DNA of 64,000 bases from Megasphaera paucivorans (GTDB lineage Bacteria > Bacillota > Negativicutes > Veillonellales > Megasphaeraceae), in assembly GCF_900103535.1 (NCBI RefSeq), contig NZ_FNHQ01000005.1:1-64000 (forward strand), in the 5' to 3' direction. Of the stretch, positions 36,516 to 42,255 are shown in pieces. Position numbers and translations under genes: made by a program. Within the stretch, counting starts at the first letter, position 1. Each line of letters starts with the position of its first letter. The notes beneath the pieces are model-generated. The model was not told the DNA's origin. It saw only the letters and a program-made list of their open reading frames with translations, and ran no database searches.

Positions 36516-37514
36516 CTATTTATCCGTGATTTTGCCGATATTTTTGATTTCGATGGAAATAGTCCCATTGGGATTATTAACAAATTCGATATATTCCTGA
36601 TTTTCAAAATAAGCTGCCGGAAATATAACTTCGATTCCGGTATCCGTCTTGATTTTATGATTTTTTCCGGTCTTGACGGCAACCTGCTTTTCTACCTTCA
36701 CATCAACCGGCAGTTTTTCCTCTGCCACCTGGGTTTCAAAAGCCTGCTGCATCTCGCGGGAATCGGAAAATACTTCTTTTCCCAATGCCACCGGAGAAAA
36801 TCCATCAGATACGGCTGCGTTCTCCATAATATAACTTTTCGCCTTGGAAAGCGCTACCGCGGAATTAGCCCCATATTCCTTTGCCACCTTGCCGACCGTT
36901 TGATTGACTTTTTTAATAGCATCTTTAGCCGAGATCTGCGTCGTGCACTGCAATACACGGTCTGCCAGAACAAACACCTCTTGCCCGTCTATGATCCGTT
37001 TCTTATCAAATAAGCGGATCGACAAATCATCGCACCGAATGACTGCATAGGACTCTATCTTCTGTGTCACATTAGGCAAAATAGCAAAATGGCGGATAAG
37101 CTGATTGGAGATCCTGCCGTCCGTCCGGTTCACTTCATGCGTATACGCCGTCTTATGCCCTAACAGCAATACCGCCACATACGGGATATCATTATCCGTA
37201 TAATCAACCACCACCAGATCAACCGACGCCGTCTCCTCGCTCCCCGACAGTCCTTCATACAGCGTATTTGCCACCTCCGCCGTAAAGGAAGCAAACTCCA
37301 TCTGCTCGCTCCTATACTGCTGCAAGCGCAGTTTAAACGGACTGGACTCATAAAAAATACCCGTTTGGCTGGCGGAATCATTCTGCGCCCGTTCTATATG
37401 TTTCTCTAAAAATATATCTACCTCTCCACGAGAAAAATCCAGTTCTTCCTGCGATAAAATACACACGCCTGAATTAAAATCCAAAATATGGAGAATTCCT
37501 TTGCGAATCATCAT
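36516..37514 (-). CDS. Nucleoid-associated protein, NdpA/YejK family
   Basis: A 332-residue cytoplasmic protein of the 37-kDa nucleoid-associated family: N-terminal HILDFNSGVCILSQEELD, central VVVDYTDNDIPYVAVLLLGHKTAYTH (only part shown as family mark: ILLLG and YTH), and C-terminal GIEVIFPAAYFEN. The family binds DNA in enterobacteria but has no settled function; in other Firmicutes it often sits with mobile or defence genes. The start at 37514 follows AGAGGTGA; a GTG 12 bases earlier is less likely. Divergent from the helicase-exonuclease gene over 172 bases. Confidence 0.78.
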   Translation of the reverse strand: MMIRKGILHILDFNSGVCILSQEELDFSRGEVDIFLEKHIERAQNDSASQTGIFYESSPFKLRLQQYRSEQMEFASFTAEVANTLYEGLSGSEETASVDLVVVDYTDNDIPYVAVLLLGHKTAYTHEVNRTDGRISNQLIRHFAILPNVTQKIESYAVIRCDDLSIRLFDKKRIIDGQEVFVLADRVLQCTTQISAKDAIKKVNQTVGKVAKEYGANSAVALSKAKSYIMENAAVSDGFSPVALGKEVFSDSREMQQAFETQVAEEKLPVDVKVEKQVAVKTGKNHKIKTDTGIEVIFPAAYFENQEYIEFVNNPNGTISIEIKNIGKITDK

Positions 37515-37686
37515 AATAAAAATCACCTCTGCCTAAGGCAGTATACCACCGGAAACCGCTATCATGCAAGAAAAAAAATGTGCCGCATTTGCCGCAGCAC
37601 CACCCTGCACGCACAGGGACAAGTATGGTATGATAGATGGTATATACAAGTCCTGCCCCAAGGAACCGAAAAGGAAGTGTTATACT

Positions 37687-40305
37687 ATGCTTGATCTGTC
37701 TCAATTAAACCCTGCCCAGCGCCAAGTAGTAGAAGAATGGGACCGCAACATCCTGCTCATCGCCTCTGCCGGTACCGGCAAAACCAATACGCTGGCCTAT
37801 CGGGTTGCTTACGGCATCGAATCGGGACGTGCCAAACCGGAGGAAATTCTGTGTCTCACCTTCACCAATAAAGCCTGTCGTGAAATGCGGGAACGCATTA
37901 TATCCTGTGTCCGCGAAAACGGTACCCGCGTCGTAGTGCGCACCTTTCATAGTTTCTGCTCCGACGTCGTCCGCTCGGAAGCAAAACGGCACTCCGATCT
38001 ATATGCGGACTATATGATCTTCGATGAAGAGGACTGCAAGGAAATCATCGCCTCCCTATATCCGGACTATGCCGTGCATGCCCTGCAAAGCTTCATCGAC
38101 CTCGTCAAAGAAAGCCGGCCCGCCTATGACTATTACTCGGAGGATGCCGCCCATGACTATCAGCAGACCATTGCCCGCCTGTATGTCGAAAAGGAAGCAC
38201 GCCTGCGTGAAATATGCGCTGCTTCCCGGCACACGCTGGACGAAGGACTGTATACCCTGCTGAAAACCTCCGGCGAAACCTTCGTCATGACCTATAATGC
38301 CGCTCTCCGTGATACACACGGTCTTGATTTCAACGATCTCATCATTACCGCCTATGAATGCTTCAAAAACGAAACGATTCGCACGACCTGGCAGAACCGC
38401 TTCACGTATATCAATATTGATGAAGTCCAAGACACGAGCGAGCTGGAATATCATATTCTCGCTTCGATTTTCGGACACAATAGGATACTGCTTTGCGGCG
38501 ACTATTTTCAAACCGTATATGAATGGCGCGGGTCCCATCCCAAGGCCATACTCGCCAGTTTCAAAGCAGACTATGATCCGCGCTGCATCCTGTTCAACAA
38601 AAACTACCGTTCCACGCAGACGCTGCTGCACGCTGCCGCAGACTGCCTGAAAAATTTATTTGGTTCCGAAACGGTCACCGCGATGTATACCAAGGATCCG
38701 GAAACACCCCCGGAACAAACAATCGGCAGCCGGATCACGATCAAATCCTGCCGCAATATTACCGAGGAAGCCCGCTGGATCTATCGCCGCATACAGGAAA
38801 TCCGCAGCCTTTCCGAAGATCCCGCCATACTATCTAAAATCTGTATTCTCACACGCGTTAACCGATACAACAGGCAGCTCAGCCAGCAATTGGATTTTCT
38901 GAATCGACAGCATACAGAAACCGCACCCCTGGACTTTATGCTCGTCGACGAATTCAAATTCTTCCGCCGCCAGGAAATAAAAGATGTGCTGGCTTTTGCC
39001 AAAGTAAGCATCAATCCCCATGACACAATCAGTATGACGCGTATCATAAAGCGATTTGTTCCGGGCATCGGCAGCGCCGCACTCCAAACCATTGCCTCCG
39101 AAGACTGGAAAAAGGCCGGCATCCGCCTTACAGATTATCTGGATTCCTCTACGCTGAACCAGAAAGATGCCTTTGCCGTACTGGAACAAGAACTGGAGAA
39201 AGAAAACATCGTTGTCTTTGACGTAGAATCTACGGGTGTTGATACCCTAACCGATGAAATCATTCAAATAGCCGGTATCCGTCTTGACAAAACAGGAAAC
39301 ATAAAAGAAAAATTCATGCACTTGCTCAAGTTAAAGGATAAAACAACCGTCGGTGATTCCGTGTGGATCCACCATTTTACCGATGAACAACTGCAGCAGC
39401 AGGGAGAAGAACCGGAAACCGTATTAGCCGCCTTTCTTTCTTTTATACAGGGAGCCGTACTCGTAGGACACAACGTTTCCTATGATATCCATATTCTCAA
39501 AAGTTATCTGGGCCGGCTGCACATGGCGCAGCCACAGTATCTTACCTATTACGATACACTGGATATATTCCGCCGTTTCCATCCCAATTTAAAAAATCAT
39601 ACACTGGAATACTTGGGCCGGTATTTCCACGTGACCCATCGCTCATCTCATGATGCTGCCGACGATATTCTGGCAACAGCGGAGCTGCTATGGTATGCCG
39701 TATCTCACGATATTCGCCCGACAGCGGCAGTACGCCGGGCCTATACGGAAAAATACCTGGAAAAATTCAAGCCGGCAGCCGCGGTTCTGCAGGCGCTGCG
39801 GCAAAAAGCAGCGGTCCTGCGTCCCTGTGATTTTCTCTTTGAAGTCATTAAAACCACCGGCATTGTCACCTATTACGAAAAAAAAGGAGAAGAAAACCGG
39901 GTAGAAAATTTGCGTTCTCTTTACCGCAAGGCCAAAGAACAGGATATCCCCGGCCAAACGTCTCATGATGCCCTGCTCAGTCTGCTTACCTACACTGCGT
40001 TATCCAATACGGAACTGGATATGCTGCTCGCTAAAAAGCCAAAAATACCGATCATCACCATCCATCAGGCCAAAGGCAGCGAATTTGACTATGTCTTCCT
40101 TGCCGGCATGCAGCAAGGCACTTTCCCAACAGGGTTCGCCTTAAAAACCAACGACCTGGATGAAGAAAAACGTCTCTTTTACGTAGCCGTGACCCGGGCC
40201 AAGAAGAAATTATCCATCACCTGGTGCCAGCAAAGCCGCAATACAGAACACACACAAAGTCAGTTTTTAAATACCCTGCCCAGTATCTATACCGACTACG
40301 AATGA
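37687..40305 (+). CDS. UvrD/PcrA-like superfamily 1 helicase with a nested DEDDh 3'-5' exonuclease domain
   Basis: An 872-residue fusion. SF1 helicase motifs run in order: Walker A ASAGTGKTNT (about 30), Ia LTFTNKACREM, II NIDEVQDTSE, III CGDYFQTVYEWRGS, IV NYRSTQT (about 305), then a 2A segment ending GIGSAAL. At about 505-675, where UvrD has its 2B subdomain, a complete DnaQ-type exonuclease is inserted: ExoI VVFDVESTG, ExoII VGHNVSYDIHIL, ExoIII HDAADDILATAELL. Helicase motifs V (ITIHQAKGSEFDYVF, about 790) and VI (RLFYVAVTRAKKKL) follow. All DEDDh and helicase catalytic residues are visible. The start at 37687 marks the helicase N-terminus; upstream in-frame codons are rejected. Role not known: DNA repair or defence. 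Confidence 0.9.
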   Translation: MLDLSQLNPAQRQVVEEWDRNILLIASAGTGKTNTLAYRVAYGIESGRAKPEEILCLTFTNKACREMRERIISCVRENGTRVVVRTFHSFCSDVVRSEAKRHSDLYADYMIFDEEDCKEIIASLYPDYAVHALQSFIDLVKESRPAYDYYSEDAAHDYQQTIARLYVEKEARLREICAASRHTLDEGLYTLLKTSGETFVMTYNAALRDTHGLDFNDLIITAYECFKNETIRTTWQNRFTYINIDEVQDTSELEYHILASIFGHNRILLCGDYFQTVYEWRGSHPKAILASFKADYDPRCILFNKNYRSTQTLLHAAADCLKNLFGSETVTAMYTKDPETPPEQTIGSRITIKSCRNITEEARWIYRRIQEIRSLSEDPAILSKICILTRVNRYNRQLSQQLDFLNRQHTETAPLDFMLVDEFKFFRRQEIKDVLAFAKVSINPHDTISMTRIIKRFVPGIGSAALQTIASEDWKKAGIRLTDYLDSSTLNQKDAFAVLEQELEKENIVVFDVESTGVDTLTDEIIQIAGIRLDKTGNIKEKFMHLLKLKDKTTVGDSVWIHHFTDEQLQQQGEEPETVLAAFLSFIQGAVLVGHNVSYDIHILKSYLGRLHMAQPQYLTYYDTLDIFRRFHPNLKNHTLEYLGRYFHVTHRSSHDAADDILATAELLWYAVSHDIRPTAAVRRAYTEKYLEKFKPAAAVLQALRQKAAVLRPCDFLFEVIKTTGIVTYYEKKGEENRVENLRSLYRKAKEQDIPGQTSHDALLSLLTYTALSNTELDMLLAKKPKIPIITIHQAKGSEFDYVFLAGMQQGTFPTGFALKTNDLDEEKRLFYVAVTRAKKKLSITWCQQSRNTEHTQSQFLNTLPSIYTDYE

Positions 40306-40320
40306 TCCAGACGCCGGCAT

Positions 40321-42255
40321 CTATTCTTCAAAACAGTTGTACATCGTATGATATCGGTAAGACAACGTATCCCCGGACTTCCCGTAGCGGTTTTTCAATA
40401 TGGCCAGCTCAATGCTGCGAATGGGATGTGCGCTCTCTATGTCGTTATAGGTCTCTCCGGCCAGCTGCATGCTGATGAGCACATCACTGGAATGTTCGAT
40501 GGCCCCAAGTTCCTTTATCTCACCGGGAGAAGCATACGCATAGGTACCGCCGTCTACACTGTCTACCCCGGAAACAGCAACCACAGGGACCTTGAAATCC
40601 CGGCTGATCCGCTTCAATTCCAATACGGCCTTATTGGTATTCTGCCGATCGTTCATCCGTTCATCATACGGCGACAGCCGGTGAATATAATCGACGATCA
40701 CCACGGGGCGGCGGCCGGTAAAACGGATATGCTTGTCCACCATTTTCCGGATATCTTCTACTCCGATATCCCCCAAGCCTTCACTGATATACACATGACC
40801 GGCATATGTTTTATACGTTTCAATCGCGGCATTGATCAAATCTATCTCTTCTTGATCATAAGAGGTATACCGGCGGCCCGTGCTGATAGCCCGCGCCGTC
40901 TTGGCCAGTTTGGCCTCCGCCGACTGCTGCATGGCCTTTTCAAAGGTAATGCGGGAAATACTCTTAGCCATTAACGCGGACCGGCCGGTCTCCAGAGAAA
41001 AGAAAATGACATCGGAGCCGCCCTTTTCGGCATGCTCTCCTTTGCCTGCCGCAATTTGGTCGGCCATCTGCAGCACAAACGTCGTCTTTCCCAGCGAACC
41101 GGCGGCACTGATAATATACAGTCCTTCATACAGGCCGCCGTCCAGCACTGCATCCAACTTGGCAAACCCTGTAGGTATAATGGAAGCATGGACGCTGGTA
41201 TTGATGGCACGAATGAAAGACGGTATATGATTCAGCATACTATTTTGCAAATATCCTTCTTTGTCGACCTCCCGCGCCGGTTCCTCGATACTTTCATTCT
41301 CCACCACGATCGTCCGGAACCCATCCCGTGCTTCTACCAACGCCTCACTGGCATCCTTATACGGTCCCGTCAAGTTGACACAATAAAAGGGAATATTCAT
41401 CTGCTTCAAGGCGATCTGCAGTTCTCGGGACGCAGACCGGCCCTGGGAATCGTTATCCATGGCAATAAGCAGTGGATGCTTGGGACGGCACGTCTTCAGC
41501 AATTCAATAAACTTGTTGATATTAGAGGTCGTACCCAAGGCCACCGCATCTCCGCCGACTTCCATAATGCTCAGCGCATCGAGTTCGCCCTCCACGACGA
41601 ATACGGGCTGCTGGGCATTTTTGATGGCAATCGCATTATAAATCGAATTCGGGCCAGTTTTGCGATACCGTTCGTTCGATGCCGTATCTGTATTGCGAGC
41701 GATAAATCCCGATTTATTTTTAGGGATAATGACAGCTTTCCAGACCTTGCCGCCTGTCCCCCGCGTATAATTGGGATCATAGCCGAGCCCGGCCCACTGA
41801 ATAATCTCATCACTTAACCCCCGCTGATGCAGATAGTTTATTTCCCCTATACGCTTGGCACACGCCTTGAAATACTCCGTATAATCTACAGCGCCGCGGC
41901 GCCGCATCATAGCCTCACGCCGTTCCCGCAGTCCCTCATAGAGAGGCCATGCTTCGGGAACAGTTTGTTCATCTTCATCCACTACCACGTCAAAAAGCTC
42001 GCAAGCCCGCCGAAAAACGGCTTCTCTGTCGGATATATCCTCCAACACGCGAATCACATCAAAAATATCATAATCTACACCGCAGCCAAAACAATGTACT
42101 CTGTTCCGCTTTTCATTAAACCGCATCGATTGAATTTCTTTTTCCGCATGAAGTGGATTCAAACACGGAAACGAATCACTCGTACTAATCCCGCGATTTT
42201 TCAAATACTGTCCCAACTGTCCGCGAATAAACTCCACTGCCGCATCCCGCTTCAT
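40321..42255 (-). CDS. T7 gp4-like primase-helicase (CHC2 zinc finger, TOPRIM, DnaB-type ATPase)
   Basis: A 644-residue protein in phage primase-helicase order: CHC2 zinc finger (C31, H36, C55, C58), a TOPRIM domain (VVEGELDALSI with E222; MDND with D267/D269), and a RecA/DnaB-type ATPase (IPTGFAKLDAVL, Walker A AAGSLGKT at 384-391, VDYIHRLS as Walker B, and a C-terminal ILKNRYGKSG). GGGAGG precedes the ATG at 42255. It ends 15 bases from the opposite helicase-exonuclease gene. No integrase, terminase or capsid gene is near, so it is either a domesticated phage or element gene or part of a compact unknown unit. Confidence 0.9.
   Translation of the reverse strand: MKRDAAVEFIRGQLGQYLKNRGISTSDSFPCLNPLHAEKEIQSMRFNEKRNRVHCFGCGVDYDIFDVIRVLEDISDREAVFRRACELFDVVVDEDEQTVPEAWPLYEGLRERREAMMRRRGAVDYTEYFKACAKRIGEINYLHQRGLSDEIIQWAGLGYDPNYTRGTGGKVWKAVIIPKNKSGFIARNTDTASNERYRKTGPNSIYNAIAIKNAQQPVFVVEGELDALSIMEVGGDAVALGTTSNINKFIELLKTCRPKHPLLIAMDNDSQGRSASRELQIALKQMNIPFYCVNLTGPYKDASEALVEARDGFRTIVVENESIEEPAREVDKEGYLQNSMLNHIPSFIRAINTSVHASIIPTGFAKLDAVLDGGLYEGLYIISAAGSLGKTTFVLQMADQIAAGKGEHAEKGGSDVIFFSLETGRSALMAKSISRITFEKAMQQSAEAKLAKTARAISTGRRYTSYDQEEIDLINAAIETYKTYAGHVYISEGLGDIGVEDIRKMVDKHIRFTGRRPVVIVDYIHRLSPYDERMNDRQNTNKAVLELKRISRDFKVPVVAVSGVDSVDGGTYAYASPGEIKELGAIEHSSDVLISMQLAGETYNDIESAHPIRSIELAILKNRYGKSGDTLSYRYHTMYNCFEE

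Follow-up and report, generated by a model that had tools for sequence, protein, structure and literature searches.

The window analyzed here, a 64,000-nucleotide stretch of Megasphaera paucivorans DNA, was found to encode a protein in which a complete DEDDh 3′–5′ exonuclease is nested within the 2B region of a UvrD-type helicase. Judged from its sequence, the 872-residue product is an SF1A (PcrA/UvrD-like) helicase with complete motor motifs. We gave it the working name ExoUvrD. Sequence analysis and modelling showed how its domains are ordered, where the insertion lies, that the catalytic residues are intact, and how the protein folds, and they established the single clade, the distribution, and the genomic context. 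Helicase–exonuclease fusions are already known; a DEDDh domain nested in a UvrD-type 2B region appears to be new. ExoUvrD represents an old, conserved family, not a one-off, and this family probably repairs chromosomal DNA. The features of the gene are listed in Table 1.

Table 1. Features of the ExoUvrD gene, with nucleotide positions in the window
Feature	Residues	Position	Strand	Basis
CDS of the UvrD-like helicase with nested DEDDh exonuclease (ExoUvrD), 872 aa		37687..40305	+	ORF, Pfam, start as in relatives
UvrD-helicase N-terminal Pfam domain (1A/1B)	7–290	37705..38556	+	Pfam, E 4e-59
UvrD_C Pfam domain (2A + 2B), interrupted by the exonuclease	301–849	38587..40233	+	Pfam, E 2e-96
Walker A / motif I, ASAGTGKT	26–33	37762..37785	+	K32 invariant
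Motif II, DEVQD	245–249	38419..38433	+	D245, E246, Q248, D249 invariant
GIG motif of 2B, duplex-contacting element in UvrD	460–462	39064..39072	+	Alignment; role from PMC13238157
Inserted DEDDh 3′–5′ exonuclease domain	about 505–676	39199..39714	+	Pfam, AlphaFold2, fold match
ExoI, D512-x-E514	512–514	39220..39228	+	Alignment
ExoII, D600 (GHNVSYD)	600	39484..39486	+	Alignment
ExoIII, H655-x4-D660 (HDAADD)	655–660	39649..39666	+	Alignment
Motif V region, IITIHQAKGSEF	789–800	40051..40086	+	Sequence and alignment
Motif VI, EEKRLFYVAVTRAKK	826–840	40162..40206	+	Sequence and alignment

An alternative in-frame ATG lies upstream at position 37564 and would add 41 residues to ExoUvrD. The start at 37687 was preferred because the relatives start at this position of the frame in the alignment and because an RBS-like sequence, AAGGAAG, is located approximately 10 nt before it. 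The GC content of the gene showed nothing unusual.

Further intact SF1A motifs were TFTNKA (residues 58–63), GDYFQTVYEWRG (271–282), NYRST (306–310), and ITIHQAKGSEF (790–800). Motifs Q, I, Ia, and II–VI, together with the UvrD N- and C-terminal domains, place ExoUvrD in the SF1A superfamily, and the AlphaFold2 model, compared with known structures, had the 1A/1B/2A/2B fold. The motor residues K32, D245/E246, Q275, R308, E826, and R837 and the nuclease residues D512, E514, D600, H655, and D660 were invariant in 51 Bacillota relatives with 42–52% identity to the window protein, a conservation far beyond chance. Both activities have apparently been kept by selection, and neither half looks like a relic.

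Pfam located an RNase_T/exonuclease domain at residues 509–668 (2e-28), within the UvrD_C match at residues 301–849. The alignment with PcrA runs to the GIG stretch (GIGASTIDKL, which ends at residue 430 of PcrA) and starts again farther on in 2B, and seven plain PcrA/UvrD/Rep helicases have 23–24 residues where the ExoUvrD family has about 170. The exonuclease was therefore assigned to an insertion in 2B after the GIG motif. The D-x-E ... D ... H-x4-D residue set and the RNase H-like exonuclease fold identify the insert as a DEDDh exonuclease. The original prediction, made from the DNA sequence, had called the motifs and coordinates of this gene accurately, as judged from the ORF, Pfam, and alignment, and its claim of a complete DEDDh exonuclease nested in 2B was borne out by the Pfam domain order, the PcrA alignment, and the intact catalytic and motor residues.

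The full-length protein was modelled by AlphaFold2 with 50 relatives, giving a mean pLDDT of 90.9 and a pTM of 0.82. The exonuclease sat inside the helicase fold, as had been expected. When the model was compared with the UvrD–DNA structure from D. radiodurans (4c2u), 619 of the 658 residues of that structure were aligned (Z 40.8) with a large rmsd of 7.0, which in this model probably reflects domain orientation. This extent of alignment indicates that the helicase fold, 2B included, is intact around the insert. The exonuclease domain modelled in isolation had a pLDDT of 96, and its fold matched those of PolC, S. aureus DinG, S. thermophilus DnaQ, E. coli epsilon, and ExoI with Z values of 20–22.

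To place the protein among its relatives, homologues with the same nested order were counted. A full-length copy was present in 36 of 60 related genomes, with 26/27 in family f4, 9/17 in the window's own family (f1), 1/12 in f2, and 0/4 in f3; some of the genomes lacking the gene (8/17, 11/12, and 4/4 in f1, f2, and f3, respectively) are incomplete assemblies. Absence from these relatives indicates that the gene is not essential. Among named genomes, 213 relatives were confirmed by a scan, and the 80 best of them matched nearly the whole query with 42–52% identity and came from Selenomonas, Pectinatus, Mitsuokella, Anaerovibrio, Schwartzia, Megasphaera, Veillonella, Clostridium, and their kin. 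In a phylum-wide sample of 398 genomes, 27 had matches spanning the 2B–exonuclease–2B junctions, and ten further hits were partial, several of them in frames of PolC length (about 1400 aa). Remoter members were found in Acetoanaerobium (33% identity), Prevotella, Phocaeicola, Bacteroides, and Chryseobacterium, those of Prevotella and Chryseobacterium having 22–25% identity to the window protein, and their domain order was unchanged where scanned. Negativicutes, Clostridium, other Bacillota, and Bacteroidota all had full-length relatives in which the insertion site was the same and every catalytic residue was present, and the Bacteroidota members retained identical catalytic residues in the alignment. 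At L131:7271-10929 (G135), other UvrD-like frames of 484 and 704 aa directly adjoin the nested helicase gene.

A tree of 27 nested proteins and seven plain PcrA/UvrD/Rep helicases was built without the exonuclease columns. All 27 nested proteins, each of which has the DEDHD catalytic set, fell on one side of a branch with a support of 100/100. This single clade is consistent with one insertion event. The Bacteroidota branch was long, and its exact placement is unsure. A scan of IMG/VR with the window protein found no relative, and one starting from a Bacteroidota query gave only partial matches, the best of which (L153) encodes a split helicase and, in an ORF apart, an exonuclease, not a nested protein. 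The top matches in the phage collection, such as H1 (96% coverage), were plain PcrA without the insert.

Gene neighbourhoods were compared across the family, with the neighbours named from their sequences rather than from curated annotation, and no neighbour conserved across the whole family was found. In the window, the ExoUvrD gene has a divergent neighbour encoding an NA37/YejK-type nucleoid-associated protein (36516–37526, minus strand) and a convergent neighbour encoding a phage-like DnaG–DnaB-like protein, in which a primase with a zinc ribbon and Toprim is fused to a DnaB-type helicase (40321–42255, minus strand). The surrounding region is metabolic, with genes for GAPDH, aminotransferases, and uronate metabolism. 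The NA37-type gene was present in 39 of the 60 genomes, at other loci, and the primase–helicase, perhaps a domesticated element, was not found in the other 59 of the 60 related genomes searched. For these reasons, a functional link of ExoUvrD to either neighbour was rejected.

The relatives are arranged differently. The order in Veillonella is dnaX–ybaB–recR–(bofA-like)–ExoUvrD gene, and in five of these genomes the ExoUvrD gene lies 3–17 bp after the small bofA-like gene. Several Selenomonadaceae have the order comEA–comEC–ExoUvrD gene–holA; at three loci (L055, L057, and L073) comEC and holA flank the gene closely, with short gaps or overlaps, and at another (L058) it directly follows comEC. 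This position raises a possible link to DNA uptake, and it would suit an enzyme of competence and transformation that acts next to ComEC on incoming ssDNA, either by processing it or by limiting its integration. We regard such a role as very unlikely, since the comEC-adjacent order is confined to Selenomonadaceae. The comEA–comEC–holA order is common in Bacillota, and the adjacency may therefore be a chance landing.

A separate PcrA and a separate AddA are encoded in the same genome as ExoUvrD, and AddA was present in 59 of the 60 related genomes with or without the ExoUvrD gene, so replacement of AddAB by ExoUvrD was rejected. Because it coexists with PcrA and AddA, ExoUvrD appears to add a function and to replace none. 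The original prediction had left the choice between repair and phage defence. Its repair alternative was strengthened by the recR and comEC–holA operon contexts in some lineages and by the stable chromosomal, mostly lineage-wide occurrence of the gene; the lack of a neighbour conserved across the whole family and the unrelated neighbours of the window copy count against it. The operon contexts and the separate PcrA and AddA suggest that the window gene serves chromosomal DNA maintenance, not phage defence.

The defence alternative found no support for the window gene, whose neighbours are metabolic and whose matches to RTasHel and GajB were non-specific, the genome's own PcrA scoring the same or better. 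The PADLOC RTasHel profile gave 449 bits for ExoUvrD and 452 bits for this PcrA, and identity with RTasHel (DRT) was rejected because the profile is non-specific and no reverse transcriptase is adjacent. Gabija was rejected because no GajA OLD-family nuclease is adjacent and the own PcrA scored higher to the GajB models. Next to the window gene, no OLD nuclease, reverse transcriptase, or other defence partner was found. As for the profile itself, PADLOC-DB PDLC03802 (RTasHel) scores ordinary PcrA above 450 bits and, used alone, would mislabel PcrA/UvrD proteins.

Defence-gene neighbours were seen only for Bacteroidota plasmid relatives, in three kinds of islands. On plasmid pE2-28 of Prevotella sp. 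E2-28 (L140:8235-27652), ExoUvrD belongs to a long same-strand run of TerY-C, Ser-Thr kinase, vWA, PP2C, three unknowns, FGE, ExoUvrD, FtsK, an unknown, ZorA2–ZorB2–ZorE2, and FtsK; in this run, a Zorya II system is combined with a TerY-P-like module and a helicase–exonuclease of the nested type. On the Chryseobacterium plasmid pA2BH1 (L028:1-10526), the ExoUvrD relative comes after genes for a methyltransferase, a Res-like helicase of type III R-M, and a TmtA/Sacsin-like ATPase of 1612 aa. Plasmids of Phocaeicola vulgatus (L138:13127-18631) and B. fragilis (L139:5170-10615) have the order Fic–unknown–RhuM–ExoUvrD with an adjoining recombinase gene; the annotation splits the B. fragilis copy into two ORFs that overlap. 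The P. nigrescens copy lies among housekeeping genes. The plasmid neighbours are a lead, not proof, for defence, and this lead does not extend to the window gene. An anti-phage or anti-plasmid nuclease–helicase would agree with these islands; we consider it an improbable explanation of ExoUvrD, because the window copy and the Bacillota copies are surrounded by genes of metabolism, competence, or repair, and the gene is common within the order.

We consider it rather probable that ExoUvrD is a bifunctional chromosomal DNA-maintenance enzyme that trims 3′ ends in a manner coupled to unwinding. We infer both activities, their polarity, DNA rather than RNA as the substrate, and the role in repair. 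PcrA, UvrD, and Rep move 3′-to-5′ on 3′-tailed ssDNA and unwind duplex or strip proteins. By analogy, the SF1A motor (1A/2A) would load on 3′-tailed ssDNA and run 3′-to-5′, unwinding duplex or stripping proteins, and the DEDDh domain in the 2B arm would shorten a 3′ end lying on the motor's duplex side. Such an end may belong to a 3′ flap or to a primer with an abnormal terminus, or it may be an invading or nascent end that has been unwound, and the site may be a gap, a stalled fork, or a recombination intermediate, where trimming would be coupled to unwinding. The unwinding and 3′ trimming in one step that had originally been proposed is geometrically not obvious, because a 3′-to-5′ motor leaves the 3′ end of its own strand behind and 2B faces the duplex. 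As inferred from family structures, SF1A motors leave the 3′ end of their own strand, so the 3′ end most reachable by 2B would be on the duplex side.

In PcrA/UvrD/Rep, the 2B region is in contact with the duplex and keeps the monomer inhibited, and it has to rotate before unwinding can occur (PMC13238157). Being inside 2B, the nuclease therefore rides on a regulatory switch. If the nuclease captures a 3′ end, this could set the position of 2B, and gating of the motor in this way is speculative. A broader and rather doubtful scenario is that an ancient single DEDDh insertion into the autoinhibitory 2B gave a self-switching helicase–nuclease, in which 3′-end capture would move 2B and turn the motor on, and which would act in repair in Bacillota and Bacteroidota chromosomes and would have been separately recruited to Bacteroidota plasmid defence islands (Zorya II, type III R-M, or Fic/RhuM).

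A DEDDh domain would suit RNA or R-loop substrates equally well. ExoUvrD might process R-loops in the way suggested for ExoDinG of B. subtilis, with its motor opening RNA–DNA hybrids at transcription–replication conflicts and its DEDDh domain digesting the RNA. ExoDinG combines the same pair of activities; it degrades the RNA strand of RNA–DNA hybrids and, like PcrA, clears R-loops from the genome (PMC12525004); moreover, the exonuclease folds match (Z 22.0). No ExoDinG (TIGR01407) was detected among the 60 related genomes, which leaves room for an R-loop analogue. However, the distributions are not cleanly complementary, since families f2 and f3 mostly lack both ExoUvrD and ExoDinG, and the neighbours are recR, comEC, and holA, not RNA genes. 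On this evidence, R-loop processing seems unlikely, and DNA maintenance remains our preferred reading.

In the open-access literature searched, no description of a nested UvrD–DEDDh family was found, and public annotation calls the relatives only "3′-5′ exonuclease" or "ATP-dependent helicase." Among the 25 best NCBIfam matches, no model passed its cut-off for the whole protein. The family is apparently undescribed. A working nuclease in the regulatory arm would be a natural test of the control of unwinding by 2B movement, and the family would likewise be a natural test of helicase–nuclease coupling in one chain. Many Veillonella, Selenomonas, Megasphaera, Clostridium, and Prevotella genomes hold this conserved, generically annotated, predicted DNA-processing enzyme.

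Compared with known systems, ExoUvrD shares the SF1A motifs, the 1A/1B/2A/2B fold, and the GIG motif with PcrA/UvrD/Rep, and UvrD and PcrA structures in a matching conformation gave Z values of 36–41 to the model. It differs from them in the 170-aa DEDDh insert in 2B, its separate clade, and the normal PcrA alongside it, and its scores were far below the NCBIfam cut-offs for pcrA (TIGR01073, 357.6 vs 911), uvrD (TIGR01075, 282.6 vs 1144), and rep (TIGR01074, 284.6 vs 951). AddAB, RecBCD, and AdnAB also combine a UvrD-like motor and a nuclease in one chain, and the ExoUvrD model matched the AddA, AdnB, and RecB motors; however, the nuclease of these systems is a PD-(D/E)XK domain at the C-terminus, and they act as hetero-complexes. 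The contrast with AddAB/RecB drawn originally holds, as Pfam detected no PD-(D/E)XK domain in ExoUvrD. Membership in AddA/RecB/AdnA was rejected on this ground and because the chain ends after motif VI. The ExoUvrD gene has no AddB neighbour. Gram-positive PolC has the closest exonuclease by sequence and one of the closest by fold, but PolC is a polymerase and shares only the exonuclease module.

The ExoDinG motor is of the SF2 XPD-like type, with a polarity opposite to that of SF1A. ExoDinG (the DinG of B. subtilis and S. aureus) resembles ExoUvrD in having a DEDDh 3′–5′ exonuclease (fold Z 22) and a helicase in one chain. Its exonuclease is N-terminal (PMC11981726), whereas that of ExoUvrD lies inside the motor. 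Identity with ExoDinG was rejected because the ExoUvrD motor is SF1A, the exonuclease is internal, and TIGR01407 matched the exonuclease only (68 bits vs a cut-off of 547.7). With its two activities arranged in a different order and on a different motor, ExoDinG is a precedent for fork and R-loop maintenance (PMC12525004, PMC11981726). In mitomycin repair in B. subtilis, MrfA–MrfB provides a helicase working with a DEDDh (DnaQ-family) 3′–5′ exonuclease (PMC10889028). The closest analogues of ExoUvrD are ExoDinG (SF2) and MrfAB. MrfA and MrfB are two separate proteins, and their helicase differs from the UvrD-like type.
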